Source of the DNA: Nitrosospira sp. Nsp2
Lineage (GTDB): Bacteria; Pseudomonadota; Gammaproteobacteria; Burkholderiales; Nitrosomonadaceae
Reading direction: 5' to 3'
Length of the DNA stretch: 64,000 nt
Assembly: GCF_003050965.1 (NCBI RefSeq)
Contig: NZ_QAOU01000003.1
Coordinates: forward strand, 62,001-126,000
In this document: positions 5,144 to 26,461 of the stretch, piece after piece
How the letters are laid out: every line of letters starts with the position of its first letter
Position numbering within the stretch: the first letter of the stretch is position 1
Notes under the pieces: model-generated
The model's database searches: none
What the model saw: the letters and a program-made list of their open reading frames with translations, nothing else
Told to the model about the DNA's origin: nothing
Translations under genes and position numbers: made by a program

Positions 5144-5173
5144 AAAAAAAACGGCCATCATTTTCGATGGCCG
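5144..5173 (-). terminator. Rho-independent terminator of the multicopper oxidase operon
   Basis: The stem CGGCCATC/GATGGCCG (8 perfect base pairs, 6-base loop, 5152-5173) is followed on the minus strand by eight T residues (complement of 5144-5151). It begins 28 bases after the stop codon of the downstream oxidase gene and separates that operon from lexA2. Confidence 0.87.
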
Positions 5174-5200
5174 CTGCCGAGGGTAAGTTTCAGGACTACA

Positions 5201-8086
5201 TCAGTGATGAGACGGGTTTCGTTGCGCAGGGGTGAGTTGGCTCTTCCATTCATCAGGCAGGTTCTTAACCCAGCTATTGTATACGTTGGGAATGGCAAGA
5301 ACTCCTTGCCCGCCATAGCCCGCCAGACCGCTGATGCGGTCATCAGTGTGGGTACTGCTGTTGCTTACGAGCGAAACCCGGCCTGCCACTTCCGCGTCGG
5401 ACACATTGCCGTCATTGTTGGGATCGACGTCAACGACAATAAGCTCATTGGAGAACTTGCTGGTGACATAGGCATAGTATCCCCCACCCTTTTTCGCACC
5501 AAAATTTGCTCCGTGGCAACCCGGATCGCAGGGAAGCATCTTCACCACGCGGTCGGTACGCGTGTCGATGACTATGATCGATTGACCCATATTAGCCACC
5601 ACTACTGCGCGACCATCCGGGGAAACGGGCAACTGAATCGGAAGGATGCCGACCGTTGCCAGTCCATCCCCATCGCGGTCCTGGATTGTTCCGTCAATGG
5701 GGTTATAGTCGGCAATAAGGTTGATGGTTTTTAGTAACGACCCATTCCTGTCGAGCACGCTCACGCTATGATGCAACAGGTTCGCCGCGTAGGCCTTGCT
5801 CGAATCAGGCATCATGCCGATAGCGATGGGGTGAGCGCCCGGGGCAGACCCTCCGGTGGAGGTTCTTTCCAGGATGACTCCGCTGTCGATGTCATAGAAG
5901 CCGACATCGTTAGTAAAGATATTTGGCGTAACCACCTGGTTTCCGTCCGCGCTGATCCAGTGCCCATGAGGATTTGTGGCAAGCTGGCCGGATTTCTGTG
6001 TAGGCATGATCTCCTTGACCTTGGTTGTGCCCGCCGGGATGATCGACACCCCATCTTCGCCGTTGTTGGTGACCGTGATGTCGTCATTGTCCGGGCGGGT
6101 CATGACATGGGCAGGGGCCTCGCCCACGCGGATGTTTTTGATCAGCTTGCCCGTCCTTTTATCGATCATCGTCAGTTTGTTGTCAAACCATTGCGTCTGA
6201 AAGACAATCGATTGATCCCTGTTGGTCCACATGTTATGGGGATTATTCATATTGATCTCCGGCAGGGCGATCTTGCGGGTTACTTTCCAGGTCGTGGTGT
6301 CAACGACGGAAATGGTGCCCGGTTTGCTCTTGCCCGCCGTTTTTTCAAACTGGGTATCGACCCATACCTCGCCCACCCCATGGATACGGGGCGGAACCGG
6401 CGGTGTCAAGACGGTGTTGTTGCCGTACCGGGCGATCAGCACTTCCGATAAATTCACGGAAGCTCCGCCGGTGATGCGGACCGAAACGTTGGGATACGTT
6501 ATGTTCCATGGCTTGCCGGAAGTGTAATCCTGCCAGTTGTTGGGAGCGGTGGCGACAAAGAAGGTTCTCAGCAGGAAAGTGGCCAAATCGCTGCTAGTGG
6601 GCAGGTTCTTTATGCCCGGGGCCAGATCGATGGTTTCGCCGAGATCAAGACCATCGGTGGCGGGATCGTCCACGATGACCGCGCCAAACATGTATGGATG
6701 CACCTTGCAGGTAAATACATATAGACCGGGTTTGGACAAATGTAGCAGCCCCCCGCCTTTATAGGCCCTGGCCTGGTCAAATGGCAGGTGCGGCGCTCCA
6801 CTGGGCCATATCAGGCTGGTAATCGAATGTACCGTGTTGGTGTCCGACATGATGAAATTGACGCTACCGCCGGGAGGCAGGACTTCCAGCGACCGGGTGC
6901 CGCCGGTAATGCCAAATATAGTGTCGGCGCGGGCGCTCCTGAACCAGCTGCTGGGTTGATCCGAAATTATGAAGGTGACGAGGCCGGGGTCGTTGCTGGT
7001 ATGGCCAAAAATAGCTCCATGGGGAGATGCACCGGCGATGCTGGTTCCCATTTGGGGGGAGCCTACGGGATCAACCCTGAAGCTGCCGTGCATCCCTGCT
7101 TCCATGTGGGAAAACAAATGGCAGTGGTACTGCCAGTTGCCTGGCCCCACGCCCGAACCTGCTTTAACCGTAAACACATGGCTATCGAAACGGTCGGCTA
7201 ACAGTTTCGTATCGATAATGCCAGGCGTGCCGCTGTGTTCAACGGTCCCTTTCGATAAATCGTGGTGGCGGTGATCATCGTCGTCATCTCCGTGCCGGTC
7301 GCCATCCCCATCTCTTCTGAAATGGGAGTAGTCATCCCTGTCCTTGTCATGCCGGGAAGCGCTATCCTTACCCTTTCTCGTTTCTGTAACTGGTTTGAGC
7401 CATCGGTGGGCATGCAAGTGAAAGGTGTGCCCCGGTCCCACCGACAGGATATGGAATCTCACAATGTCGTTATGAACGGCGCCCAGAGTGGGATTGGTCC
7501 ATAACGGTGTCTGTGTGCCGTCCTGGGAAATTTCCGTTCCCCAGAAGGTTGAGCCGACCATGAACAGGACTTGCTGCTTTTTGACGTCCTGTCGCTTCAC
7601 CGGAACAATGCGCCCGTCAGCGTCAAGGTAGCTCTCCACCTTCCCGTCGGGCCTGTCAACGACGATTGCGCCGAACAGGCCGGTAAGCCCCAGTTTCTCG
7701 TCGTGGTAGAGGTGGGTGCCCCGTGCGCTGGTATCTACGCTATAGTTTCCTGTTTGGCCCGGCGCGACCGTTCCGCCATGTGAAAGGCCGGGTACCTTGA
7801 AACCTACTTTTTCCTTGGTATTGTTGACGAGCTGCACGCTCACCGAGTCACCCTGCTTTACGAAAAGGGTCGGACCTGGGATGACGGCGGTACTGGGGTA
7901 GTGCGAGCCCTGGTTTCCACTATGGCTGACCATCTTGTAGCCAGGTTGCCCGTTAGGCAGTATTTCGGCTGACAATACAATGTTGTGGGAAGCAGCCAGG
8001 GCCATGGTTGAACCGAGTGGTATGGCTGCGATCAGCCCGAGTGCCATCGCAGTCAATAATTTCATTCTAAGTGTAAATTTGTTCAT
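5201..8086 (-). CDS. Secreted multicopper oxidase with extra cupredoxin and beta-propeller domains (subunit B)
   Basis: This 961-residue protein has a signal peptide ending near ALA-ASH (residue 32). The start is the ATG at 8086, which has AGAGGA seven bases upstream; a longer frame to 8134 would overlap the preceding gene. Domains: two oxidase-type cupredoxins (about 35-345), a third cupredoxin with His420, Cys460, His463 and Met466, then a YVTN/cytochrome d1-like beta-propeller (about 590-950). Domain 2 keeps all its ligands: H220, H223, H225, then H321-C322-H323, H327 and M332. Domain 1 has lost the first HxH (KVPG around residues 97-100) and the second is HDE (128-130). An Asp/His-rich insert lies at about 240-276. 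It follows the subunit A gene by 34 bases. Substrate is unknown; periplasmic copper-dependent oxidation or electron transfer is inferred. Confidence 0.88.
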   Translation of the reverse strand: MNKFTLRMKLLTAMALGLIAAIPLGSTMALAASHNIVLSAEILPNGQPGYKMVSHSGNQGSHYPSTAVIPGPTLFVKQGDSVSVQLVNNTKEKVGFKVPGLSHGGTVAPGQTGNYSVDTSARGTHLYHDEKLGLTGLFGAIVVDRPDGKVESYLDADGRIVPVKRQDVKKQQVLFMVGSTFWGTEISQDGTQTPLWTNPTLGAVHNDIVRFHILSVGPGHTFHLHAHRWLKPVTETRKGKDSASRHDKDRDDYSHFRRDGDGDRHGDDDDDHRHHDLSKGTVEHSGTPGIIDTKLLADRFDSHVFTVKAGSGVGPGNWQYHCHLFSHMEAGMHGSFRVDPVGSPQMGTSIAGASPHGAIFGHTSNDPGLVTFIISDQPSSWFRSARADTIFGITGGTRSLEVLPPGGSVNFIMSDTNTVHSITSLIWPSGAPHLPFDQARAYKGGGLLHLSKPGLYVFTCKVHPYMFGAVIVDDPATDGLDLGETIDLAPGIKNLPTSSDLATFLLRTFFVATAPNNWQDYTSGKPWNITYPNVSVRITGGASVNLSEVLIARYGNNTVLTPPVPPRIHGVGEVWVDTQFEKTAGKSKPGTISVVDTTTWKVTRKIALPEINMNNPHNMWTNRDQSIVFQTQWFDNKLTMIDKRTGKLIKNIRVGEAPAHVMTRPDNDDITVTNNGEDGVSIIPAGTTKVKEIMPTQKSGQLATNPHGHWISADGNQVVTPNIFTNDVGFYDIDSGVILERTSTGGSAPGAHPIAIGMMPDSSKAYAANLLHHSVSVLDRNGSLLKTINLIADYNPIDGTIQDRDGDGLATVGILPIQLPVSPDGRAVVVANMGQSIIVIDTRTDRVVKMLPCDPGCHGANFGAKKGGGYYAYVTSKFSNELIVVDVDPNNDGNVSDAEVAGRVSLVSNSSTHTDDRISGLAGYGGQGVLAIPNVYNSWVKNLPDEWKSQLTPAQRNPSHH

Positions 8087-8120
8087 CCTTTGTCCTCTGA
8101 TGTCCTGTTGGGGCGTTTTA

Positions 8121-9125
8121 TTATTGGGTGACATTAAAGTCGCCCCTCATGCCCATCAAACGATTTGAGAAATTTTTGTCGAGGTAATCTGTTGAATGTG
8201 AGGACTTGATGGTGAAAACGTGGTTTTCGAGCGGACCGATGTCGGCTCTGTCGATGAGGTTATTGGTTCCGGGATCAACCCATCTGTAACCTTTGAGCCT
8301 GAACTGATGCAGGTCGGTTCCCATCGCAATCAGATGAAACCTCACATTGTCCCCATGTTTTGCGGTCAAGGCAGGGTTGGTCCAGCGGGGCGTTTGCTGC
8401 TTGCTGACGCCATCTATCTCCGTTCCCCAAAAGGCATCATCGCCCAGGAAAAGCACATAATCCTTCTTGATGCTATCGACGGATACGTTCCGGATTCTGC
8501 CTTCGGCGCTTGCAGTAACTGTCCCTGATTCCGGGTTGACAATGAGGGCGCCGAACAGCCCCCGGTGTTCAGAGCCATTGTGCGTCGCGAAGTTGTGGTC
8601 GTGATACGGCCAGGTGCCCGCTGTGCCCGGCGCCACATCCCAAAGATAAGTATAAAAACCGACAGGGTAGGCGCCTTCATCTTCAACCTTGTTGATAACC
8701 TTCAGCGTGCCGTCGCTGAGGATCATGTAATGGACGCCGTGGGGATGGACGCTAACCTGCTGATCGGGCCGCATGGTTAAGCCATTGCGAATAGTGAGGA
8801 CCACCTTGTCCCCTTCGTTGAGAACAATCGTGGGACCTGGAACCGTAGCTTCGGTGCTGTAGCGGGATGTGATATCAGCGCCGTTGACGGTGTGCTGAAC
8901 CATCCGGTAGGCAAGCAATCCATCAGTGATTTCTTCCGCGGTCATTTGAATCCGGTGATCGGCGCTGACGCTTTCCCCAACGGGTAGAAAAAAAGCCGCG
9001 AGAAAGAGGGCTGACGGTATTATCAGGCCAGTGCGAAAGCGTCCGAATTGCGTCGAGATTGAGGTGTACCCGGCGTTATCAGAAGCACAAAACTCCCCGA
9101 TAGCATGGCTTCGTCGAAACTTCAT
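8121..9125 (-). CDS. Secreted two-domain multicopper oxidase-like protein lacking a type 1 site (subunit A)
   Basis: This 334-residue protein has a long N-terminal region and a hydrophobic segment (about 32-50), with likely signal cleavage after VSA (55). It aligns end to end with the first 340 residues of the downstream protein (shared GPT, GLFGA.IV and FWGTEI blocks). Domain 1 carries the full HPH (127-129) and HDH (175-177) motifs. In domain 2, H273 aligns with the T1 histidine of the paralogue, but the T2/T3 histidines are replaced by Arg276 and Lys278. The HCHxxxHxxxxM motif is absent, the corresponding end reading NRLMGMRGDF. Alone it could not form a complete oxidase centre. It is first in a two-gene operon; the start has GGGAG about 13 bases upstream, so the initiation site is only moderately certain. 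Confidence 0.85.
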   Translation of the reverse strand: MKFRRSHAIGEFCASDNAGYTSISTQFGRFRTGLIIPSALFLAAFFLPVGESVSADHRIQMTAEEITDGLLAYRMVQHTVNGADITSRYSTEATVPGPTIVLNEGDKVVLTIRNGLTMRPDQQVSVHPHGVHYMILSDGTLKVINKVEDEGAYPVGFYTYLWDVAPGTAGTWPYHDHNFATHNGSEHRGLFGALIVNPESGTVTASAEGRIRNVSVDSIKKDYVLFLGDDAFWGTEIDGVSKQQTPRWTNPALTAKHGDNVRFHLIAMGTDLHQFRLKGYRWVDPGTNNLIDRADIGPLENHVFTIKSSHSTDYLDKNFSNRLMGMRGDFNVTQ

Positions 9126-9526: not shown

Positions 9527-10225
9527 CTATAAGCCGTGGTTGGGGTGCGCCGAGCGCGGCTCGGTGATTCCTACGTCGCGGTGATGAAGTTTGGCAAACA
9601 TGAAAAGGTCAAAGCGGTTCGTGATCTCCAGCTTGCTGAAAATGGATGTCAGATGGTTTCTTAACGTTTGTTCGCTGATGCACAACTTTTGCGCGATTTT
9701 CTTATTGGAAGCGCCCGCTTCGTTTGCAAACGCGGTGACGATGGCACGCTCTTTTCGGGTAAGCGCACCGATTTTTTTGGTGATAGCGGTGGGCTTTTGG
9801 CCAGCACGAATAAAGTTGATAAAGATACGTCCTGTCGTGCTTCTGTCGAGCCAAAGTTCGCCAGCATGAACTTTCTCAATTGCCTTGAGTATGTTGTGCG
9901 TGGGCTCTTCTTTGAAGACTACGCCTCGCGCTCCATTCAGCACAGCTTCGTCGATGGCGGCCTGGTCGTGACACTCTGTGAAGATGATGATGTGAAATTG
10001 TCCTTCCCTGAGCAAATCCGGGATGAGGTTTCCGCTTTTTTCCACTCCAAGACAAAGGTCGAGTAAGAGAATATCCGGTTTTTTTTCCCTTGCCACGTGC
10101 GCGGCCTCAGGCCCGTTGGTCGCTTTGCCCACGACCTCCATGCTCGGCGACTCGGCGTTGATAAGTTTTTCCAGTCCCCACAGAACGATCTGATGACTGT
10201 TAATGAGCAGGACACGGATAGACAT
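9527..10225 (-). CDS. LuxR/NarL-type response regulator
   Basis: This 232-residue protein has an N-terminal receiver domain (MSIRVLLINSHQIVLWGLEKL) with the likely phospho-acceptor Asp in DILLLDLCLG. A C-terminal LuxR helix-turn-helix follows (LTRKERAIVTAFANE, then NKKIAQKLCISEQTLRNHLTS). The start is the ATG at 10225, where the receiver fold begins; a GTG 39 bases upstream (10264) would add MAKKKLTYISTFL. No sensor kinase gene is adjacent, so it is an orphan regulator here. It lies upstream of, and on the same strand as, the multicopper oxidase pair, and behind the divergent type II secretion operon. Its targets are unknown; the oxidase operon is the nearest candidate. Confidence 0.85.
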   Translation of the reverse strand: MSIRVLLINSHQIVLWGLEKLINAESPSMEVVGKATNGPEAAHVAREKKPDILLLDLCLGVEKSGNLIPDLLREGQFHIIIFTECHDQAAIDEAVLNGARGVVFKEEPTHNILKAIEKVHAGELWLDRSTTGRIFINFIRAGQKPTAITKKIGALTRKERAIVTAFANEAGASNKKIAQKLCISEQTLRNHLTSIFSKLEITNRFDLFMFAKLHHRDVGITEPRSAHPNHGL

Positions 10226-10690
10226 GAGGAACGTGGAGATGTAAGTTAATTTTTTTTTTGCCACGATTGGAAGTTAAAAAAAGCATAGTTTAAATTTCTA
10301 CATTACGCAAATAGGGTTATTCGTTTGCGCATGGTTAAAAGTTGGCTTTTTTTCAAGGCGTTACTAGGCGAATGTAACGGCGACGAGTATGGCAGTCCAA
10401 TTGGGATTCATTTCAAGATTTATAAGGATCGGTATGGTTGCGTCGTGCCCGAGGGGGAGATATTTACCGGAAAACGGCAGTCAATGTTTTTTCGCCATGA
10501 ATAATTCAGCGGTTCCCAGCTGGGCTTGACATTTGCTTCGATCCGCGATATTGCTTGCGACATTGTTGGGAAGCTAATATGATTCCCACGGATTCTCGGG
10601 GTCAAGCTCACCCGTTCCGTCATTTTTTGGTAACACCCAAGCTCTACACTCTACGTTTCAGGACGCTTGCGCTCCGTGCTGTGAAAGTCT
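10226..10690. other. Divergent intergenic region between the response regulator and gspG
   Basis: About 465 AT-richer bases separate two divergently transcribed units, so the promoters of both probably lie here. I could not pick a convincing -35/-10 pair or a gene; a 67-codon minus-strand frame at 10420-10623 has no recognisable features. Confidence 0.5.
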
Positions 10691-11149
10691 ATGAATAGAT
10701 TTCAAAATAGTGAAACGAAGTATCGTTGGCCGTTCCCACGCCGCCACTCGACGCAAGGATTTACGTTGCTCGAACTGCTGGTCGTGATGGTCATTATTGG
10801 ATTGCTGGCAGGCTATGTCGCTCCCAAGTATTTTTCTCAGGTGGGCAAGTCTGAGGTAAAAGTTGCGCAAGCGCAGATTGATGCCCTCGAAAAGGCTCTG
10901 GACCAGTACCGCCTGGACACCGGCCACTACCCGACTACGGAACTAGGGTTGACCGCATTAATGACACGTCCGGCGAACGAGCCAAAATGGCAGGGACCAT
11001 ACCTGAAAAAGGCGGCCCCACCGGATCCATGGGGGCGGCCGTATATTTACAAGTATCCGGGTGAACGCGGGGAGTACGATTTACATTCGTTGGGAAAGGA
11101 CGGTCAGCCCGGCGGTGCGGGCGAAGCGGCGGATATCACCAACTGGTAA
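10691..11149 (+). CDS. gspG: Type II secretion major pseudopilin GspG
   Basis: This 152-residue protein carries the type III prepilin signature GFTLLELLVVMVIIGLLAGYV around residues 23-43, with Glu at +5 of the mature protein. The GspG-typical tail follows: TELGLTALMTRP, GPYLKK, DPWGRPYIYKYPG and DLHSLGKDGQ. It would be cleaved at the Gly-Phe bond by a prepilin peptidase (not encoded in the window) and assembled into the pseudopilus. It opens an operon that continues without large gaps to 20450; gspF follows after 6 bases. The basic N-terminal extension before the cleavage site (about 22 residues) is longer than usual. Confidence 0.95.
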   Translation: MNRFQNSETKYRWPFPRRHSTQGFTLLELLVVMVIIGLLAGYVAPKYFSQVGKSEVKVAQAQIDALEKALDQYRLDTGHYPTTELGLTALMTRPANEPKWQGPYLKKAAPPDPWGRPYIYKYPGERGEYDLHSLGKDGQPGGAGEAADITNW

Positions 11150-11155
11150 GTTGCA

Positions 11156-12340
11156 ATGCGCTATCAAGTAAAAGCTGTGCTTGCCGGGCGAGGCACGGTA
11201 TTTCTTGAACTCGACGCCGATAGCGCGGAAGACGCACGTCTTCAGGTGCTGGCGCAAGGCGGGATGGTGCTGAATGTCAGGCGCCGTTTTTCAGGCTGGC
11301 TGCCGAAGCCGAGGCTGCGTTTTCCGCTGGCGCACTTCAGCCAGGAACTGCTTTCGCTGCTGGTAGCTGGACTCAGTCTGGTGGAGAGTATTGAAACACT
11401 GGCGGATAAAGAGCAGGACGCCGGCGTGCGTAAAATTATCGAGGAGCTGCTTGCACGGCTTTACGAGGGTGTTACGTTCTCTCGCGCATTGGAGTTTTTT
11501 CCGCAAGCATTCCCCCCGCTCTACGTCGCGACCGCAAGGGCAAGCGAGCGTACCGGCGACCTGCCTGAGGCGTTAACGCGTTTCATAAATTATCATACAC
11601 AGATGGATCTGGTCCGCAAGAAGCTGATCGGCGCTTCCATTTACCCTGTGCTTCTGTTGTTGATCGGGTTGCTCGTGGGGCTGTTTCTCCTGGTTTTTGT
11701 CGTGCCGAAGTTCAGCGCCATCTACGAGGATGTAGGCTCGGATTTGCCTTGGCTCTCCATGCTGCTTATTGAATGGGGGCATCTTGTGCAGGAACAGGGA
11801 TGGCAGATGGCGGGTGTCGCGGCAGCTGTGCTGGGGCTAACCGTTTATGGCATTACCCGTCCGGCATTCAGGGTGCGGTTGATCCAGCAGTTATGGCGTA
11901 TTCCAGCCATTGGGGAACGCATGCGGGTTTATCAGCTCGCTCGATTTTATAGGACATTAGGCATGCTGTTGCGCGGCGGCATCCCGGTGGTGAAAGCCTT
12001 GGAGATGGTGGACGGCCTGTTGCAACCGCACTTCCGACCAAGAGTGCGCGCCGCTGCCCTTCTGATCCGCGAAGGAAAGACCATCTCAAACGCAATGGAA
12101 GCTGAAGGGCTGACTACGGCGGTCGGCGACCGCATGTTGCGGGTGGGCGAAAGAACCGGTCTCATGGGCGAGATGATGGAGCGCATCGGCAATTTTCACG
12201 ATGAAGAAATCGCGCGCTGGGTAGAGTGGCTCACCAAGCTGATCGAACCGGTGCTGATGGCGGTGATCGGGGGCGTGATCGGGGGGATAATCATTCTTAT
12301 GTATATGCCTATATTTCAGTTGGCGGGAAGTGTCGGTTGA
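11156..12340 (+). CDS. gspF: Type II secretion inner-membrane platform protein GspF
   Basis: This 394-residue polytopic membrane protein has two T2SF repeats, each ending in hydrophobic segments: LIGASIYPVLLLLIGLLVGL near 160-180 and LIEPVLMAVIGGVIGGIIIL near the C-terminus. The motif ALxxFPxxFPPLYxA is typical of GspF/PilC. It forms the platform that couples the GspE ATPase to pseudopilus assembly. The stop codon overlaps a TTG that most likely starts gspE. Confidence 0.93.
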   Translation: MRYQVKAVLAGRGTVFLELDADSAEDARLQVLAQGGMVLNVRRRFSGWLPKPRLRFPLAHFSQELLSLLVAGLSLVESIETLADKEQDAGVRKIIEELLARLYEGVTFSRALEFFPQAFPPLYVATARASERTGDLPEALTRFINYHTQMDLVRKKLIGASIYPVLLLLIGLLVGLFLLVFVVPKFSAIYEDVGSDLPWLSMLLIEWGHLVQEQGWQMAGVAAAVLGLTVYGITRPAFRVRLIQQLWRIPAIGERMRVYQLARFYRTLGMLLRGGIPVVKALEMVDGLLQPHFRPRVRAAALLIREGKTISNAMEAEGLTTAVGDRMLRVGERTGLMGEMMERIGNFHDEEIARWVEWLTKLIEPVLMAVIGGVIGGIIILMYMPIFQLAGSVG

Positions 12341-14043
12341 ACCAGTTGATCGAAGCGGAGGTCCTTCAGACCGCAACAGGGACAGGACGTATTGATGCGC
12401 ATCAGCTTGCTGAGGCGCGCAGGGAGGCTTTTACGCGAGGCGTTCCGGTAATCGGTTTTCTGGAGGAAACATATGGCCTTGAGCCCGATCAACTGATAGC
12501 GGAACTGGGTCGGTTGCTGCGCATGCGTGTGCTGACAATGGAACGCCTGCGCGCATTTACCCCCGCATTCGAAGTGTTGCCTTTTAACGAAGCCGTTGCC
12601 GAGGAATGCGCGTTGTTCCGCAACGGCGAGGAATACATCCTTGCGGTCGCCAATCCGTTTTCGCCGAACTTGAGAGCCTGGGCGGAAGACCGTATCGACG
12701 TTCCAGCGGCATGGCATCTGGTTCATCCGGCGGACTTGGTCGCCTTTTTTGCCCAGCAGGAACAGACCATGCGCGCCATGGATACTTTGCTGCCCGCAGC
12801 GGCAAGCCGAGAAAAACAGGCGGGTGAGGAAGATCTTTCGCTCAAATCGATCAACGAAGGTACGAGCCCGGTGGTGCGTTTGGTACATTCCACCTTATAT
12901 GACGCGCATAAATCACAGGCAAGCGACATACATCTCGAAATGGTACCGGGCGCACTTTCGATCAAATACCGGATCGACGGCGTTCTGACCAGCATCGGAG
13001 TGGTGCAAGGCGCGGATTTGGCGGAACAGGTCATTTCACGCATCAAGGTGATGTCTGATCTGGATATTGCCGAACGGCGAGTGCCTCAGGACGGTCGTTT
13101 CAAGGTTTCCATCCAGGGAAGGGAGATTGACTTTCGCGTATCCATCATGCCCAGTATTTTTGGGGAAGACGCGGTGTTGCGTATTCTTGATCGGCAGGCG
13201 CTGGCCGATCATGTGGAGGGCCTCACGCTGGATCATCTTGGCTTCGAACCGGCCACAATGGCGAGTCTGCGCCGGCTCAGCGCCGAACCCTACGGTATGC
13301 TGCTGGTGACCGGGCCCACCGGCAGCGGGAAAACGACGACGCTTTATGCCGCCATTTCCGAAGTAAACACCGGCCACGATAAAATCATTACCATCGAAGA
13401 TCCAATCGAGTACCAGTTGCCCGGTGTCCTGCAGATACCCGTTAACGAGAAGAAGGGGCTGACCTTTGTGCGCGGTTTGCGCTCGATTCTGCGTCACGAC
13501 CCCGACAAAATAATGGTTGGAGAAATCCGCGATCCGGAGACGGCGCAAATTGCGATCCAGGCGGCATTGACCGGCCATCTGGTGTTTACCACCGTTCACG
13601 CGAATAACGTGTTCGATGTCATCGGGCGTTTCTCGCATATGGGGGTCGACCCCTACAGTTTCGTTTCGGCCCTGAACGGAATCGCCGCGCAGAGATTGGT
13701 CCGCCTGCTCTGCGCGCATTGCGCAGCCGAAGAGCGTCCGGACGAGCAATTGATAGCGGCATCCGGAATTACTCCGGAGCGGGCGGAAACCTTCCGGTTT
13801 CGCGCCGGAAAAGGCTGTGGCCAGTGCCGGGGCAGCGGTTATCGGGGACGAAGCGCGATTGCGGAGATGCTGATCTTGAATGATGAAATCCGCGAACTGA
13901 TCGTGGCGCGTGAACCCATACGGCAAATCAAGGAGGCAGCGAAGCGTAATGGCACTCGTTTCCTTCGGGACGCAGCGCTGGAGATGGTGCAGTCTGGGCA
14001 GACGAGCTTGCAGGAGGCCAATCGTGTCACCATTGTGGCGTGA
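12337..14043 (+). CDS. gspE: Type II secretion ATPase GspE
   Basis: This is a hexameric AAA-type assembly ATPase of about 568 residues. It has a Walker A motif (GPTGSGKTTT), an Asp box/Walker B region (GEIRDPETA), a His box (GHLVFTTVHAN), and a C-terminal zinc site formed by two CxxC pairs (CAHC and CGQC). The N-terminal T2SSE_N-like domain contains LEEARRE-type and GYxLxPDQL-type patterns. I place the start at the TTG at 12337, which overlaps the gspF stop as TTGA and gives MNQLIEAEVLQ. The longer frame from 12226 is antisense-like low-complexity sequence inside gspF. The next gene begins inside its last 20 bases. Confidence 0.94.
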   Translation: MNQLIEAEVLQTATGTGRIDAHQLAEARREAFTRGVPVIGFLEETYGLEPDQLIAELGRLLRMRVLTMERLRAFTPAFEVLPFNEAVAEECALFRNGEEYILAVANPFSPNLRAWAEDRIDVPAAWHLVHPADLVAFFAQQEQTMRAMDTLLPAAASREKQAGEEDLSLKSINEGTSPVVRLVHSTLYDAHKSQASDIHLEMVPGALSIKYRIDGVLTSIGVVQGADLAEQVISRIKVMSDLDIAERRVPQDGRFKVSIQGREIDFRVSIMPSIFGEDAVLRILDRQALADHVEGLTLDHLGFEPATMASLRRLSAEPYGMLLVTGPTGSGKTTTLYAAISEVNTGHDKIITIEDPIEYQLPGVLQIPVNEKKGLTFVRGLRSILRHDPDKIMVGEIRDPETAQIAIQAALTGHLVFTTVHANNVFDVIGRFSHMGVDPYSFVSALNGIAAQRLVRLLCAHCAAEERPDEQLIAASGITPERAETFRFRAGKGCGQCRGSGYRGRSAIAEMLILNDEIRELIVAREPIRQIKEAAKRNGTRFLRDAALEMVQSGQTSLQEANRVTIVA

Positions 14044-14848
14044 CCGGATGCAGGTTTTTCTTGCGCCCGAACGGGTCGATATGGCGCGGCTGCGCAAGGG
14101 TATAAAGCCGAAGCAGGCGGCTCGGGTTGCCGCCACGTGCGAACAGAAGCCGGGGTTGCCCGCGTGGGAGGCTCCGCTTGAGCAATTCGAGCGGATAACC
14201 GAACAGGCCGGCGGAGTGGACATAAGCATCACCATTTCGAACGCCTTCGTTCGCTACGTAGTACTGCCCGCTCAGCCATCGATTGCGACCCCGGCCGAAT
14301 TGCACGCCTATGCCGCGTTTCAGATGCGCGAGGTATTTGGCGACCGGGCCGCGACATGGGTCATCAGCGTAAGTGCGTGGGACCCGTGCAGCGGGGGGGT
14401 ATGTGCTGCGATTGAGCGTAGTTTTCTGGAACGGATGACCGAAGTCTGCTCGCAGCGCAAGGCGAGGCTGAAATATGTCGAACCCTATCTCACGGGCGCT
14501 TTTGATCACTGGTACAAGCGATTCAATAGCAACCGCTCATGGTTCGCATTGTTGGAAACCGGACGGGTTTGTATCGCCTTGCTGGAGAATGGCGCGTGGC
14601 AACGCATAAGTAACCAGCGGATCCTGCACGATGTGGAAGATGAACTGCTCTCGGTGCTTCATCAGGAGGCGATACTGTTCTCCGGAAGCAAGGAAGCGGA
14701 CGAGACGGTCTACCTGTTTGCGCCAGAGCATCAAGAATTCGCCTTGCCGGAGGACTGCGGATGGCGCATTGCTCCGCTGCAGACTGAAAGCATGCCTGCT
14801 CCGCCGCATTATCCAACCATTGCCGAAGTGACGGCCGGGGCAACCTGA
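14024..14848 (+). CDS. PilM/GspL-like cytoplasmic component of the secretion system
   Basis: This 274-residue protein of the secretion operon has weak resemblance to actin-like PilM/GspL N-terminal domains: an opening MQVFLAPERVDMARL and a DISITISNAFVRYVVLP segment. No transmembrane segment is evident, so it is probably cytoplasmic and docks GspE to the membrane proteins that follow. The GTG at 14024 is chosen as start because AGGAGG lies six bases upstream (14012-14017), overlapping the end of gspE; the ATG at 14048 is less well supported. Its stop overlaps the next start as ATGA. The functional assignment is from gene order and low similarity only. Confidence 0.75.
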   Translation: MSPLWRDRMQVFLAPERVDMARLRKGIKPKQAARVAATCEQKPGLPAWEAPLEQFERITEQAGGVDISITISNAFVRYVVLPAQPSIATPAELHAYAAFQMREVFGDRAATWVISVSAWDPCSGGVCAAIERSFLERMTEVCSQRKARLKYVEPYLTGAFDHWYKRFNSNRSWFALLETGRVCIALLENGAWQRISNQRILHDVEDELLSVLHQEAILFSGSKEADETVYLFAPEHQEFALPEDCGWRIAPLQTESMPAPPHYPTIAEVTAGAT

Positions 14849-15396
14849 TGCGCCGCCTTGGACTCAGATTTCCGGACACCGGCGGCGGGGCGGAGCGCGT
14901 GGGCTATATCATTATGTCGCTTGGCCTCATGATGTTGGGCGCTGTGTTGTATGAGTTCAATCTGGCCATGAACGAGGTGGCGTATTGGGATACCCGTATC
15001 GCCAGCGTTGAGCGGCGGGTTCAGCGCACCACGGCGCCCCAGGGCACTTCGTCTTCGTCATCGTCATCGTCGTCGTATGCCGGCCGCGACATGAAGCAGG
15101 AGGTAAAAAAAGCCAATGCGGTAATGAGCGAGCTTGATTTGCCGTGGCAAGCGCTTTTTGATTCGGTCGAATATGCCGCCAACCATGATGTGGCTCTGCT
15201 CTCCTTCCAGCCGGACCCTGCCGGCCGCATGATGCGTATCGGCGCGGAGGCAAAGAACATTGCGGCGATGCTGGATTTCGTCGGCGCGCTGGAACGTGAG
15301 CCGGTGCTTAAGGATGCCCACCTGCTCAAATATGAAATCAAGCGGGACGATCCTCATCGGCCCGTCATTTTTCTGTTGACCGCAATATGGGCCTAA
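14848..15396 (+). CDS. PilN/GspL-C-like membrane protein with poly-serine linker
   Basis: This 182-residue bitopic membrane protein has one N-terminal hydrophobic segment (GYIIMSLGLMMLGAVLYEFN, about 19-38) followed by a heptad-rich stretch. A run of nine serines (about 68-76) encoded by a TCN tract comes next, then a ferredoxin-like periplasmic domain with the ending LLKYEIKRDDPHRPVIF. This matches the layout of PilN or the periplasmic half of GspL. Start and stop overlap both neighbours (ATGA upstream, 10 bases downstream), so translation is coupled. Function is inferred from position between the PilM-like and PilO-like genes. Confidence 0.72.
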   Translation: MRRLGLRFPDTGGGAERVGYIIMSLGLMMLGAVLYEFNLAMNEVAYWDTRIASVERRVQRTTAPQGTSSSSSSSSSYAGRDMKQEVKKANAVMSELDLPWQALFDSVEYAANHDVALLSFQPDPAGRMMRIGAEAKNIAAMLDFVGALEREPVLKDAHLLKYEIKRDDPHRPVIFLLTAIWA

Positions 15397-15974
15397 GTTT
15401 TTTACAAAACGCCTGGCTGCGCATGCGCTGGCAAGCGGAACGGCTGGGTACCCCTGGAAAAATCGGCTTCGCGCTGTTTGTCTTTTCCGCAGCGTTTTTT
15501 TTCGCGGCAGTGTTACCGCGGCGCGCCGAGTCGAGCGCGCTTATGATCAAGGCGGAAACGATGCAGGCGCAATTGAAGGCCGAACCCGCGCGGACAAGCA
15601 CAAGCGGCTCAGGCATCCGGAAGGCGGTACAAGGACATGAAGGGCTGCAGGTATTTTACGAGTTTTTTCCGAGTTTTGATTCCACTCCGTTCTGGATTAA
15701 CGAGGTGGTACAGTCCGCGGCAGAGCACGCCGTAGAGATAAGCGGGACCGAGTACCGTCTGGTGCGGGAGAAGGAGGTGAAGCTCGCGCGCTATGAGATG
15801 CTGGTGCCGGTGCGGGGTAAATATTCCCAGGTGCGTGGTTTTATCGCCGGTGCGTTGCGTGCCGTTCCGCCAATGGCGCTGGTGGATGTTGCGATTAAAC
15901 GTGAAGGGGTGGACTCGGAGTTGCTGGACGCGAATCTCAAATTCAATCTCTATCTGAGCGAAGGCCCGGAATGA
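15387..15974 (+). CDS. PilO/GspM-like membrane protein
   Basis: This 195-residue bitopic protein has a cytoplasmic basic N-terminus, one transmembrane helix (GFALFVFSAAFFFAAVLP, about 27-44), then a short coil and a periplasmic PilO-like domain (FYEFFPSFDSTPFWINEVVQSA). It overlaps the gene before it and shares four bases (ATGA) with the next. With its neighbours it would form the inner-membrane alignment complex linking GspE/GspF to the secretin. The family is assigned by topology and order rather than a decisive motif. Confidence 0.72.
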   Translation: MGLSFLQNAWLRMRWQAERLGTPGKIGFALFVFSAAFFFAAVLPRRAESSALMIKAETMQAQLKAEPARTSTSGSGIRKAVQGHEGLQVFYEFFPSFDSTPFWINEVVQSAAEHAVEISGTEYRLVREKEVKLARYEMLVPVRGKYSQVRGFIAGALRAVPPMALVDVAIKREGVDSELLDANLKFNLYLSEGPE

Positions 15975-16519
15975 CAGGAGCGGGGGCACCAAGCGGGCGG
16001 CGCACATTATGGCTGGGGGTGGCATTGCTAGCCTCGCTTCTTGCCGCCCAATGGGTCAGTGGAGAGGATGGCACTGCGGATCTGGAGCAGGTTAAAGAAG
16101 AAGCAACTCCACGAAAACAGGCTCCTACGGCTGAAATTCGCTCGTCGAGCGAAAACGCGCGGGAAAATGAACTGCTTCGGCTCGATCGATTGGAGCGCAG
16201 GAAATTCAGCACCCAGGCCGGAGACATTTTTCGTGCTCAATCGTGGGCACCCCCTCCCCCTCCCCAATCTGAGGCCGAAAAAAATCAACCGCCTCCACCG
16301 CCGCCGCTTCAATTCAAATATCTCGGCAAGATTATTGAGGGTGAGGAAACCCAAGTATTCCTTGCGCTGGCTGAACGTAATTATATTGTCAAGCCAGGAG
16401 AGAAAATCAATAGCCAGTACCGCCTGGATGAGGTGAACGACCATGCAATCACCGTTACTTATCTTCCGCTCAATGCCAAGCAGATGCTTGCCACTGCACC
16501 GGTCGGAGAGATTCGATGA
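15971..16519 (+). CDS. PilP/GspC-like periplasmic linker protein
   Basis: This 182-residue protein has an N-terminal membrane anchor (LWLGVALLASLLAAQWVSG), an acidic/basic linker, two proline tracts (APPPPPQ and QPPPPPPLQ), and a compact beta domain beginning FKYLGKIIEGEETQVFLAL. The latter resembles the HR domain of GspC and PilP, which binds the secretin N0 domain. It is followed directly by gspD with an ATGA overlap. Role: coupling inner-membrane proteins to the outer-membrane secretin; inferred. Confidence 0.72.
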   Translation: MTGAGAPSGRRTLWLGVALLASLLAAQWVSGEDGTADLEQVKEEATPRKQAPTAEIRSSSENARENELLRLDRLERRKFSTQAGDIFRAQSWAPPPPPQSEAEKNQPPPPPPLQFKYLGKIIEGEETQVFLALAERNYIVKPGEKINSQYRLDEVNDHAITVTYLPLNAKQMLATAPVGEIR

Positions 16520-18768
16520 GGGCGGGAGCGGTTGTTCTGTTTGTCGCGTTCCTGGTCATGTTCGCGGGGTGCGCAACCAAGAAAGAGTTTACGGAAGGCA
16601 AACGCCTGATTGCCGAAGGCAAGATAGACATGGGGCTTGCCAGCCTCGAAGAGGCGGCAAGAAAGGAGCCGGATAATCTTGAAATCCGCACCATACTTGC
16701 GCGTCAGCGAGAGGCAGTAGCGGCGCGTCACCTGCTGGATGCAGATATTGCGCGCTCGAAAGGCGATGTCGCTGCTGCGGAGCAAGGCTATCGTCGCGCA
16801 CTGGAGATAAATCCACACAACGATCGCTCCCAGGAAGGCTTGGCCGGGCTGGACATGGACCGCCGCCACGGTGTGATACTGAAACAGGCGGAAGAACTGA
16901 TGGCGCGAAAAGATTATGTGGCCGCCGAACCGGAGCTCCGCACTGTTCTGCAGGAAAATCCGCAGCAGAAGGACGCCCGCCGTCTCCTACAACTCATCAC
17001 GGACATGGAGTTCCAGGCTGAAAAGGTCGGGCCGGTTCTGAAAACCGCGTATAAAAAGCCGGTTACGCTTGAGTTCCGCGACGCCGGTCTGAAATCCATC
17101 TTTGAAATAATGGCGCGCGCCGCGGGGATAAACGTCGTTTTCGACAAGGATGTCAGGCAGGATACTAAAACCAGCATTTTTGTGCGCGATACCAACGTTG
17201 AGGATGTGTTCAAGCTCTTGCTCATGACGAATCAGCTCACCCATAAGGTGCTTAACGAAAACTCGGTGCTGATCTATCCGAATACGCCCGCCAAGCAGAA
17301 GGAGTATCAGGAGTTGAGCGTCCGCAGTTTTTTCGTTGTGAACACCGATGTGAAGCAAATCGTCGCCATGGTCCGAGGACTGGTCAAAACCAAGGATATG
17401 CACGTCGACGAAAGGTTGAATTCGTTTGTCATGAAGGATACGCCGGATGCGATCCGCCTAGTCGAGCGACTGGTTGCCGTGAATGACCTCGCTGATCCGG
17501 AGGTCATGCTGGAAGTCGAAGTGCTCGAAATCAGACGCGATCTTCTGCGCAATCTCGGTTTCTTATACCCGGATCAGGTTCGGGTGAATATGCTGAACGC
17601 AGCCACGGCTGCTGCTGGTATTCCACCGCCAGATTTTCGAATAAGTTCCGCCGGAATCAATGGTGGCACCGGGGGCCTGGATAACCTGACGGCTATCATC
17701 CTCAACCCGGCATTGGTAATCAATCTCAAGCAAACCGAGGCAATTATCAACGTTCTAGCCAATCCCCGCATCCGGGTGAAAAACCGGGAGAAGGCAAAAA
17801 TTCTCATTGGCGATAAGGTTCCGGTAGTCACCACCACCGCGACCGCCAACGTCGGCGTGGCGTCCTCCGTGAGCTATCTCGAAGTGGGGCTCAAGCTGGA
17901 CGTGGAGTCCACAATCACCTTGCAGGACGAGGTCTCGATGAAAGTCAGCCTCGAGGTGAGTAATATTGTCAAAGAGGTGCCGATAGCAAATGGGGGCCTC
18001 GCCTATCAGGTAGGGACCCGTACCGCCGCCACCACGCTTGCGCTTAAGGATGGAGAAACACAGGTTCTCGCGGGATTGATCAGTGACGACGAACGCGCAG
18101 CGCTTACGAGAGTCCCGGGATTGGGTGAACTGCCATGGGTTGGGAAACTGTTTACGAACCAGAATTTCACGCGCAATAAGACTGAAATTGCGCTTCTGAT
18201 AACCCCCCGTATCGTCCGAAATATCTCCCGCCCGGCAAGAGCGGACAGTGATCTTCATTTTGGCACCGAGAACGCGGTAGGGGCGCGTCCCGTCACAATC
18301 AAAAAGAGCGCACCCAATTCGCTAGCAATGGCACCCACGGGGACCGGTGGTGGGGCTGGTTTGGCCGCCGAGTCTGCAGTTCCAACAGACGAGCCGAGGC
18401 CTTCCAGGGATGCTGCCCCTGCCGCCGATGGCGTTCCTGTCCTGATGCTGGTGGGACCCGAGCAAGTGCTTGCCGACAAGGAATTCGCGGTCAGCGTAAG
18501 CCTGGGCGGAGCCGACGCGCTGCCACCTGCAGAGCTGGAACTCAGCTACGACCCGAGCGTACTGGAATTGCTGGATGGAGGCGAGAAATCAGGATCACGG
18601 TCGTTGAAGCTGGGTAAGGGAGGAGGATTTGCGGAACTGCGATTCAAAGCGGTTGCACAAAAACCGGTCACAACCCAAGTCTCGATCAAGAGCCTCACCC
18701 TACAGGGCGAAAGCGCAGGTCTTCCGGAAGTTCCATTGCCGCCTGCCGTCAGTATTGATATCCGCTAA
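16516..18768 (+). CDS. gspD: Type II secretion secretin GspD with TPR-like N-terminus and cohesin-like C-terminus
   Basis: This 750-residue outer-membrane lipoprotein has its lipobox FAGC with Cys19. Residues about 25-160 are TPR-like helices (GKIDMGLASLEEAARKEPDN, DVAAAEQGYRRALEINPHN). N0/N1-type secretin domains (VTLEFRDAGLKSIFE) follow. The secretin core ends with VPGLGELPWVGKLF and TEIALLITPRIVR near 525-575. Residues about 640-750 form a cohesin-like beta domain (ELELSYDPSVLELLDG) after an Ala/Pro-rich linker. The fused TPR and cohesin domains mark this as a non-classical secretin, seen in nitrosomonad-type systems. The multimer forms the outer-membrane exit pore. Confidence 0.92.
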   Translation: MRAGAVVLFVAFLVMFAGCATKKEFTEGKRLIAEGKIDMGLASLEEAARKEPDNLEIRTILARQREAVAARHLLDADIARSKGDVAAAEQGYRRALEINPHNDRSQEGLAGLDMDRRHGVILKQAEELMARKDYVAAEPELRTVLQENPQQKDARRLLQLITDMEFQAEKVGPVLKTAYKKPVTLEFRDAGLKSIFEIMARAAGINVVFDKDVRQDTKTSIFVRDTNVEDVFKLLLMTNQLTHKVLNENSVLIYPNTPAKQKEYQELSVRSFFVVNTDVKQIVAMVRGLVKTKDMHVDERLNSFVMKDTPDAIRLVERLVAVNDLADPEVMLEVEVLEIRRDLLRNLGFLYPDQVRVNMLNAATAAAGIPPPDFRISSAGINGGTGGLDNLTAIILNPALVINLKQTEAIINVLANPRIRVKNREKAKILIGDKVPVVTTTATANVGVASSVSYLEVGLKLDVESTITLQDEVSMKVSLEVSNIVKEVPIANGGLAYQVGTRTAATTLALKDGETQVLAGLISDDERAALTRVPGLGELPWVGKLFTNQNFTRNKTEIALLITPRIVRNISRPARADSDLHFGTENAVGARPVTIKKSAPNSLAMAPTGTGGGAGLAAESAVPTDEPRPSRDAAPAADGVPVLMLVGPEQVLADKEFAVSVSLGGADALPPAELELSYDPSVLELLDGGEKSGSRSLKLGKGGGFAELRFKAVAQKPVTTQVSIKSLTLQGESAGLPEVPLPPAVSIDIR

Positions 18769-24631: not shown

Positions 24632-24679
24632 GCTTTTCACGTTATCAGGACGGTGCAACGCTGTCCCGACCCTGTGAAA

Positions 24680-24710
24680 GGGACAGCCCATCCCGGGCTG
24701 TCCCGTTTTG
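24680..24710 (+). terminator. Terminator-like hairpin after the secreted solute-binding-like gene
   Basis: GGGACAGCCC/GGGCTGTCCC is a perfect 10-pair stem with a five-base loop, followed by GTTTTG. The T tract is short, so it may be a weak or partial terminator. It lies between the 23135 gene and the FhaC-like gene and argues that the latter starts downstream, at 24734. Confidence 0.65.
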
Positions 24711-24733
24711 CGCTTATAAGAACAAAAATAAGA

Positions 24734-26329
24734 ATGCTTCAGTTGAGCTCTCAAATCGTGCGAATGGCGAAAAAAGCGCTGTGTGCAAGCTGCATGTTGT
24801 GCTTGATCGGCCTCATGCCTATGTCGAGCGCATATGCACAAAATTCACAGTTTGATGTATTCGAATACCGCGTCGAAGGCGCCACGTTATTGCCTGTTGC
24901 GGTGATCGAAGAAGCAGTTTATCCGCACCTTGGCGAAGCAAGAACCCTCGACGATGTGGAGCGGGCGCGCGACGCGCTGGAGCGTGCGTACCACGCCGCG
25001 GGCTACCTGACCGTGCTGGTGACGATTCCCCAGCAAAAAGTGGAAGATGCGGTTGTGCGGCTGGCGGTCACGGAAGCGCCAGTGAAGCGCTTGCGTGTGG
25101 TGGATTCGCGCTATTTCAGTCCCGCTGATATTAAAGCCACGATACCCGAGTTGGCCGAGGGGAAGGTTCCAAACTTTCCGGAAATGCAAAAACAGCTGGC
25201 GAGCCTGAATCGTTCCGCCGATCGCCGCGTCACGCCGGTCCTCCGAGCGGGAAAGACGCCGGGTACGGTGGAAGTCGATTTGAAAGTGAAGGATCAGCTT
25301 CCTCTGCACGGCAGTATCGAACTGAACAGCCGCCAGATCCCGAATACAACACTTACCCGGCTCAGTGCAAATGTAAGTTGGGACAACCTTTGGCACCGGC
25401 AGCATAGCCTTGGCCTCACCGGCCTTGTTGCACCGCAGAATCCGGACGAAAGCAAGGTATTTTCCGCCAATTACACAATGCCGGTTCCGACCGGCGGCTT
25501 CCTCGCCTTATACAGCGTCTATTCTGATTCCAACGTAGCGTCAGTGGGGGCGCTTAATGTGCTGGGCAACGGCGTAATTGTCGGTGGGCGCTATATCCTT
25601 CCCCTGCCGGGCGTCGATGGATTCTTCCATACCGCCACCCTGGGTGTCGACTACAAGGACTTCGGGCAGACAGTCAATCTGATTGAGGGCGGTAATTTCA
25701 ACACGCCCATCACGTATATGCCATTCACTGTCGGATGGGATGGCACCTGGGTTGGCGGCCGAAGTGCCACCAAGCTTGGACTCTCGCTGAATTTTCACCT
25801 GCGCGACGTGGTAGGAAGTGAAGCCGAATTTGCCAACAAGCGTTTCAAGGCACATTCAAACTATATGTTTCTGCGTGGTAATTTTTCCCATACCCACACC
25901 ATGCCCGGGGGGTGGGGATGGACGGGGCGTGCGACTTGGCAGATTGCAGCGCAGCCGCTTATCAACAACGAGCAGTCCATCGTCGGCGGGATAAATACGG
26001 TGCGCGGCTACCTCGAAGTTGCGGCCTTGGGCGACGACAGCGCAACCGGACAATTTGAAGTCTTTACCCCCAACTACGCCGCCTATCTGATCAGGCCAAT
26101 CGACGAGTTTCGCTTGGTGGTTTTTATCGATGGCGGGGTCGTGCGCGTGCAGCAGCCCTTGCCCGGCCAGATAGACCGGTTCGACCTGGCGGGTACCGGC
26201 ATGGGATTTCATCTCAAAGCATGGAAGGGAGCGTCCGCTGACTTTAGCTGGGCGCTTGCGCTGGAGGACGTTAACAGGACCAAGGCGGGAGACAAACGGG
26301 TGCATTTCCTGGTGCGGCAAGCGTGGTGA
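24734..26329 (+). CDS. Two-partner secretion outer-membrane transporter (ShlB/FhaC/HecB family)
   Basis: This is a protein of 531 residues with a signal peptide ending SSAYA-QNS. It has POTRA domains (FDVFEYRVEGATLLP, LEEAVYPHLGEARTLDDVERARDAL-type pattern) and a 16-strand barrel containing the TpsB-type VRGY motif (GGINTVRGYLE). It ends in a terminal aromatic residue (FLVRQAW), as expected for BamA-dependent insertion. The ATG at 24734 is used because a 10-pair hairpin precedes it; the open frame continues to 24653. It would secrete the giant exoprotein encoded 132 bases downstream. Confidence 0.92.
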   Translation: MLQLSSQIVRMAKKALCASCMLCLIGLMPMSSAYAQNSQFDVFEYRVEGATLLPVAVIEEAVYPHLGEARTLDDVERARDALERAYHAAGYLTVLVTIPQQKVEDAVVRLAVTEAPVKRLRVVDSRYFSPADIKATIPELAEGKVPNFPEMQKQLASLNRSADRRVTPVLRAGKTPGTVEVDLKVKDQLPLHGSIELNSRQIPNTTLTRLSANVSWDNLWHRQHSLGLTGLVAPQNPDESKVFSANYTMPVPTGGFLALYSVYSDSNVASVGALNVLGNGVIVGGRYILPLPGVDGFFHTATLGVDYKDFGQTVNLIEGGNFNTPITYMPFTVGWDGTWVGGRSATKLGLSLNFHLRDVVGSEAEFANKRFKAHSNYMFLRGNFSHTHTMPGGWGWTGRATWQIAAQPLINNEQSIVGGINTVRGYLEVAALGDDSATGQFEVFTPNYAAYLIRPIDEFRLVVFIDGGVVRVQQPLPGQIDRFDLAGTGMGFHLKAWKGASADFSWALALEDVNRTKAGDKRVHFLVRQAW

Positions 26330-26461
26330 TGAGATCGAGCTGGCGCTCGAATACATCGCCCCAACGCCCGATCGAAACCGGGTTTAAACAGAATAACGTG
26401 ATAACGCAAGGTGGGATGAGGCGGGATATCAAGGCTTCCCGTCCGGGCGCAGGTGGAAAAA

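Follow-up and report, generated by a model that had tools for sequence, protein, structure and literature searches.

Two adjacent genes in Nitrosospira with reciprocal loss of copper ligands: a predicted multicopper oxidase with a shared active site

Can two genes, neither of which encodes all eight histidines of a trinuclear copper cluster, encode one multicopper oxidase together? A locus of Nitrosospira sp. Nsp2 raises this question. The window, which is the whole stretch of 64,000 nucleotides analyzed here (contig NZ_QAOU01000003.1, positions 62,001 to 126,000), carries two adjacent genes on its minus strand, subunit A (8121..9125, 334 residues) and subunit B (5201..8086, 961 residues). The initial annotation described them as paralogous multicopper oxidases with reciprocal losses of copper ligands, and predicted that they form an obligate hetero-oligomer, modeled as an A3B3 ring. 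In this study, we followed this prediction through the ligands, the distribution, the relatives, and the co-variation of the two proteins.

Both open reading frames (ORFs) were intact. The paralogy of A and B was borne out by 32% identity over 268 residues (E 4e-34). Both proteins matched PF07732 (Cu-oxidase_3; gathering score 21), with scores of 47.1 bits for A and 37.8 bits for B. The best sequence matches of A in the PDB, its fold matches, and those of the oxidase part of B were type-B two-domain multicopper oxidases, and the small-laccase fold of two cupredoxin domains that defines this class was found. Translation confirmed all of the ligand motifs named for A. In this two-cupredoxin protein, domain 1 has intact ligands, HPH (H127/H129; 8739..8747) and HDH (H175/H177; 8595..8603), and the ligands of domain 2 are gone. 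The motif HQFRLK (8292..8309) places R276 and K278 at the positions of the type 3 and type 2 histidines, and the HCHxxxH motif is absent. Subunit B consists of a dead domain 1, a live domain 2, a type-1-like cupredoxin domain 3, and a seven-bladed propeller. Its frame is open upstream to an ATG at 8134, the first in-frame ATG, which gives a form of 977 residues. Since the Met at 8086 was invariant in 29 aligned rows and is preceded by a purine-rich stretch, B probably starts at 8086 with 961 residues, leaving a gap of 34 nucleotides between A and B. Residue numbers of B refer to the 977-residue frame; 16 is subtracted for the shorter form. In domain 1 of B, KVP (7790..7798) replaces the first HxH, and HDE (7697..7705) replaces the second. 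Domain 2 is complete, as had been claimed. It carries HTFHLHAH (7406..7429), with the type-1 His and an HxH (H236, H239, and H241), and HCHLFSHMEAGM (7091..7126), which is the HCHxxxHxxxxM block (H337, C338, H339, H343, and M348).

The ligands were then compared in a table of 69 A rows, 68 B rows, and 20 rows of a methanotroph-type oxidase (M), with identical sequences collapsed. A frames of less than 290 or more than 399 residues, B frames of less than 851, M frames of less than 280, and B frames without a recognizable HCH were excluded. All four cluster histidines of domain 1 were present in 69/69 A rows, and none of the four of domain 2 in 68/69, with one row retaining 1. The lost positions of A drifted, for example among K, Q, R, E, T, and S or among N, P, D, and E. 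The B rows also repeated the pattern of the window: the four domain-2 cluster histidines and the four type-1 ligands were found in 68/68, and the domain-1 cluster histidines numbered 0/4 in 31 rows and 1/4 in 37. Only one or two of the four type-1 ligands occurred in A. A single chain with eight trinuclear histidines was found neither in A (4+0) nor in B (0-1+4). Summed, the pair gives eight, as the initial annotation had counted for the window together with one type-1 site. In the SDGT loop, the acidic residue was present in 69/69 A rows and lost in 68/68 B rows; the last His of HLHAH was retained in 68/68 B rows and was Tyr in 69/69 A rows. The 19 complete relatives share 60 invariant columns in domain 1, of which A retained 44 and B 16 at >=90%; for the 67 such columns of domain 2, the numbers were 22 and 41. 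The HCH filter might favor the 68/68 result in B, yet all 67 relatives that satisfied the length rule are in the table, so the filter removed no B row. In a less filtered set of 43 B-type frames and the window's B, which included stand-alone propellers and broken frames, His337/339 were found in 40/44 and Cys338 in 42/44. Its recurrence in 69 rows of A and 68 of B shows that the reciprocal pattern did not arise by chance.

If the two losses complement each other, A and B should occur together. A was counted at E 3.2e-61 or better, and B-type genes were judged by identity and frame; the genome counts hold among the matches listed. Strong A matches were found in 72 of the 125 genomes of the family and strong B matches in the same 72, and the pair was lacking in 53. 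Partial B-type pieces were left out of the B count in two genomes without a strong A match, G060 (where the piece is at the edge of a contig) and G079 (where only a propeller remnant is left). At the loci read, a B-type frame lay next downstream on the same strand of 72 of the 75 distinct A-type frames; the other three were at contig ends (two) or broken (one). The best A and B matches of G039 and G065 were on separate contigs. Two or three A copies were matched by equal numbers of B copies in six genomes (G028, G048, G064, G071, G076, and G089). The numbers were unequal in G051, where the second A is shortened and reads into an RNA 2',3'-cyclic phosphodiesterase domain. The A-type gene of L074/L135 ends near residue 277 and continues into such a domain, with no B detected in the stretch, which looks like decay by deletion. 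No intact A or B standing alone with the same losses was found in the compared lists, the lone ones being broken or at contig ends. A contig scan gave 68 loci, mostly of Nitrosomonadaceae, with a few labeled Chromatiales, Pseudomonadales, Nitrospirae, or a higher group only; the contig of the Nitrospirae-labeled locus ends just past A. The nearest named relatives were Nitrosospira, Nitrosovibrio, and Nitrosomonas. In samples of the class, the A profile matched 4/369 genomes, and a cupredoxin-propeller profile matched the same four among 340. In a sample of the phylum, A-type genes were found in 2/398 genomes, both of the same family and one of them the window's. Among viral contigs, 12 pattern matches included no relative.

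Relatives with both halves in one gene were found outside the family. A homologue of A is present on the Methylocystis rosea plasmid NZ_CP044330, in G373 and G146, and in further genomes of the order of G373 (21/151 including G373). Among 20 methanotroph-type genes read, 19 had the ligands of both halves, and the remaining one (L181) was a truncated frame. A cupredoxin-propeller frame without oxidase domains followed in the same direction at 19/20 loci, with 604-732 residues (ORF rule) in 17/19 and a cut by the contig end in the other two. The sole locus without this partner was the one with the truncated oxidase. This operon, in M. rosea and others, resembles the A/B operon in gene order, in its 40-46% identity to A, and in its homologous cupredoxin-propeller partner, but it has one complete oxidase gene and a separate propeller protein. 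A gene for AMO/pMMO subunit A was found in 18 of the 22 carrier genomes outside the family (M. rosea not counted) and was lacking in G146 (rated 100% complete), G499, G527, and G568; it was also present in 7 of 10 non-carriers tested. A-type genes thus go with methane and ammonia oxidizers, but they are neither universal there nor strictly tied to this marker. In nine of the 20 methanotroph-type loci (L166, L168, L169, L175, and L177-L181), a gene for a winged-helix regulator lies upstream of the oxidase in divergent orientation; the C-terminus of the regulator contains Cys, and its match to V4R was below the cut-off of that family.

We also compared the distance matrices of the domains in 56 non-redundant operons. 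The correlation between domain 1 of A and domain 2 of B (A1-B2) was 0.845, the highest of 15 domain pairs. Pairs within one chain were lower (A1-A2, 0.784; B1-B2, 0.718), and length-matched propeller columns reached at most 0.714. In 500/500 subsamples, A1-B2 was above each of the nine pairs tested. Taken together, the reciprocal loss, the occurrence in the same genomes, the adjacency, the one-gene relatives, and the A1-B2 co-variation strongly support a shared trinuclear site. These results suggest that A and B are very probably subunits of one multicopper oxidase with an active site shared between them.

Such a site has a model in the type-B two-domain oxidases. In PMC13151041, the cluster of these enzymes is placed at the contact of two neighboring monomers, one contributing domain 1 and the other domain 2, and the type-1 sites face a central tunnel. 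The type-B small laccases (SLAC and Ssl1) and CjMCO are like A/B in having two cupredoxin domains with the type-1 copper in domain 2. Those described in PMC13151041 are homotrimers with both ligand halves in each chain, whereas A and B have half each. The A/B pair is a variant of the type-B two-domain multicopper oxidases. We propose that A and B would form one periplasmic enzyme of this type, with a trinuclear cluster to which domain 1 of A contributes H127, H129, H175, and H177, and domain 2 of B contributes H239, H241, H337, and H339. Electrons would pass from the type-1 copper in domain 2 of B (H236, C338, H343, and M348) through a Cys-His bridge to the site of O2 reduction in the cluster. 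The N-terminus of A is hydrophobic, and A is probably exported. A His/Asp-rich insertion in domain 2 of B (7235..7399), modeled with low confidence, might be a copper-collecting loop; it is nearly absent from the two other B rows displayed in the ligand table.

The hetero-oligomer of the initial annotation stood with regard to the complementation of A and B at a shared site, but the A3B3 ring was set aside. By reasoning from the known trimer geometry, a mixed trimer would have exactly one complete interface. Because only the junction of B domain 2 with A domain 1 is complete in a trimer ring, A2B or AB2 would contain one cluster. A six-subunit ring of A and B would need a different curvature. 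A single A-B interface, either in an A2B or AB2 trimer or in a dimer, would therefore be more natural than A3B3.

Several points weigh against a shared site. Operon partners share their history, so correlated distances are partly expected, and A1 and B2 are the slower oxidase domains of their chains. As shared descent and slow rates inflate the values, the A1-B2 co-variation is support and not proof. An AlphaFold model of an artificial A-B fusion had a predicted local distance difference test score of 62 and a predicted template modeling (TM) score of 0.61, with low confidence at the cluster loops. Against six-domain oxidases, its whole chain gave root-mean-square deviations of 17-23 A and query TM scores of 0.22-0.26. 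Its best three-domain match, ascorbate oxidase 1aoz, gave 11.9 A and 0.34. With these high deviations and low scores against multi-domain oxidases, the fusion model failed to reproduce the expected A-B interface. Comparison by VIA and Foldseek clearly matched B1-B2 alone, and in the first of the two comparisons the 50 matches listed included no chain of three or six domains. The association of A with B, the copper content, and the activity are predictions from sequence.

Other explanations of the pattern were weighed. A and B might interact without forming a trinuclear cluster, domain 1 of A binding one copper as a store, a chaperone, or a type-2 site like that of nitrite reductase, and B serving as a type-1 electron-transfer protein. 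B retains two type-1-like sites, and the site of A could bind metal alone. However, 68/68 B rows keep the cluster histidines H239, H241, H337, and H339, which do not serve as type-1 ligands, and the complementary four are precisely those found, with the SDGT Asp, in 69/69 A rows. Such mirror patterns are not expected from loss without complementation, and we consider this explanation improbable. Decay of both genes into pseudoenzymes, retained for a structural or regulatory role, would fit with the broken copies and with the 53 family genomes lacking the pair. It is harder to reconcile with the contrast between the retained ligands, which do not vary across the 69 and 68 rows, and the drifting lost ones, and with long open frames throughout the family, and we regard it as very unlikely. 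Least likely of all is that A and B each work with a different partner, the domain 1 that completes the cluster of B coming from some other multicopper oxidase. Two more PF07732 proteins do occur in the window's genome and five in the Nitrosomonas relative G014, but the window genome's two look like copper nitrite reductases without HxH pairs of the laccase kind (translations read by eye), and A adjoins B and shares its genomes. On other contigs of the window's genome, G000:C7:760-1086 (L002) and C4:55383-55709 (L004) are closely similar genes that resemble copper nitrite reductases by eye.

The shared site thus remains the preferred reading, and the history behind it was addressed with trees. 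A, B, and M each formed one clade (Shimodaira-Hasegawa approximate likelihood ratio support of 100, 99, and 99), as a single split among the sampled sequences would give. In a cupredoxin-propeller tree, midpoint-rooted for drawing only, B and the stand-alone proteins of ammonia oxidizers were apart from the methanotroph ones (support 100). The ancestor may have had a complete two-domain oxidase gene beside a cupredoxin-propeller gene, as methanotroph-type genomes have today. After duplication of the oxidase, one of the copies would have joined the propeller gene, with each copy losing the half of the site that the other kept. Duplication, fusion, and reciprocal loss would be the simplest history and most likely the correct one. 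Two features of the trees speak against it: support for the grouping of A or B with M was only 31, and the outgroup attaches to B by long branches. The reverse history, in which two halves merged in methanotrophs, appears less likely because the two Streptomyces proteins used as outgroup have both halves.

The third cupredoxin and the beta-propeller of B were present as the initial annotation had described, and both have features that it did not mention. Domain 3 has its own type-1-like site, formed by H436 (6827..6829) and by C476, H479, and M482 of CKVHPYM (6689..6709), each found in 101/103 rows. Domain 3 probably delivers electrons that come from the propeller or from an external donor. 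The seven-bladed propeller (5252..6376) is of the YVTN/lactonase type and has histidines invariant in 103/103 rows: H633 (6236..6238), H676 (6107..6109), H723 and H725 in HGH (5960..5968), and H874 (5513..5515). At H768 (5831..5833), His was found in 66/68 B and 18/18 solo proteins and Ile or Val in 17 methanotroph-type ones. Nitrous oxide reductase (NosZ) and thiocyanate dehydrogenase have copper in a seven-bladed propeller. In B, the invariant histidines, together with a fold match, might reflect copper binding in the central channel of the propeller; many non-copper propellers scored equally well or higher. Neither NosZ nor thiocyanate dehydrogenase was among the 9 matches of a cupredoxin-propeller profile search at E 0.01. 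B was also considered as a clade III lactonase-type nitrous oxide reductase (L-NosZ, NF052460) and rejected, with 41.6 bits against a curated cut-off of 700. In a more speculative extension, which we hold to be doubtful, copper bound by H633, H676, H723, H725, H874, and usually H768 would oxidize a small nitrogen compound or another inorganic substrate. Electrons would pass through the type-1 coppers of domain 3 and then domain 2, and O2 would be reduced at a cluster formed only where two different pseudo-oxidases meet. If this were true, A/B would be the first natural multicopper oxidase, within the literature searched, in which reciprocal loss had distributed the O2 site over two gene products.

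Stand-alone paralogues of the cupredoxin-propeller part (~615 residues; L072:3142-5079, L073:3039-4877, and L185-L199) were seen in many genomes of the family, some of them without A and B. A downstream acidic protein of ~220 residues was present at 8/17 of these loci and, by eye, a gene resembling those for extracytoplasmic function sigma factors nearby at some. The neighborhoods of these solo genes pointed to no function.

The pair was also set against other known systems. The Nitrosopumilus maritimus multicopper oxidase 9cck, with a C-terminal cupredoxin, and the three-domain copper nitrite reductases 2dv6 and 6hbe were among the fold or sequence matches of B. Like B, they have an extra cupredoxin fused to a two-domain core, but by their listed titles and lengths they have neither a propeller nor a second subunit. 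The manganese oxidase MnxEFG (9bxa) is, by its title, a heteromeric multicopper oxidase complex as A/B would be; in MnxEFG, the whole oxidase site lies in one chain, MnxG, which differs from A/B. The initial annotation knew of no precedent, and in the open-access PMC literature we found, among the matches listed, no multicopper oxidase with a cluster split over two gene products. A/B appears to be a clear natural example of a homomeric enzyme becoming an obligate heteromer through reciprocal active-site loss after duplication. As the one-gene form persists in relatives, this transition can be tested experimentally. Labeling either gene alone as a multicopper oxidase misleads annotation. Among the genomes sampled, the oxidase family occurred in ammonia oxidizers and in others, most of which have a gene for a methane/ammonia monooxygenase. 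In the periplasm of these bacteria, some enzymes of copper and nitrogen redox chemistry are still unassigned.

Expression of related genes has been reported. Two multicopper oxidase genes of N. europaea were upregulated almost equally late in phage infection, with log fold changes of 6.16 and 6.14 (PMC13356812). These could be the A/B pair; since the main text does not name the genes, we did not attribute them. In Methylocystis SC2, plasmid multicopper oxidases were raised under high ammonium (PMC9600857), and these genes were not attributed to the family either. NE1543 is described in an operon with a TonB receptor (PMC10781756, accessible part); it was not equated with this pair, as no TonB receptor was seen by eye in the N. 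europaea stretch, whose contig ends 1.5 kb past B. The accessible parts of PMC11849493, PMC5960693, PMC13003922, PMC6189053, and PMC9456337 do not mention the pair.

In the window, A, the 34-nucleotide gap, and B are followed on the minus strand by a terminator-like hairpin (5150..5175) with 11 pairs and a T tail, 25 nucleotides past the stop of B. This is a consensus match only, and 9 such sites were found in the whole stretch against 6.4 expected from shuffles. A LuxR-type response regulator lies upstream of A on the same strand (9527..10264), which suggests that the expression of A and B is regulated. Its homologues were near A at 36/89 loci (window included) and at 0/20 methanotroph-type loci, many loci having short flanks. 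The host genome of 3.46 Mb was placed as that of a Nitrosospira-type ammonia oxidizer by its closest named relatives and by a gene for AMO/pMMO subunit A. Beyond the regulator, a run of ORFs on the plus strand (10691-18768) resembles, by eye, a type II (general secretory) secretion cluster, and several of these ORFs have homologues near A at a few other loci. Further along the plus strand, a ShlB/FhaC-type transporter (24653-26329) precedes a two-partner-secretion (TPS) exoprotein of 3412 residues (26453-36691) with an ESPR signal, a TPS domain, and DUF3739.

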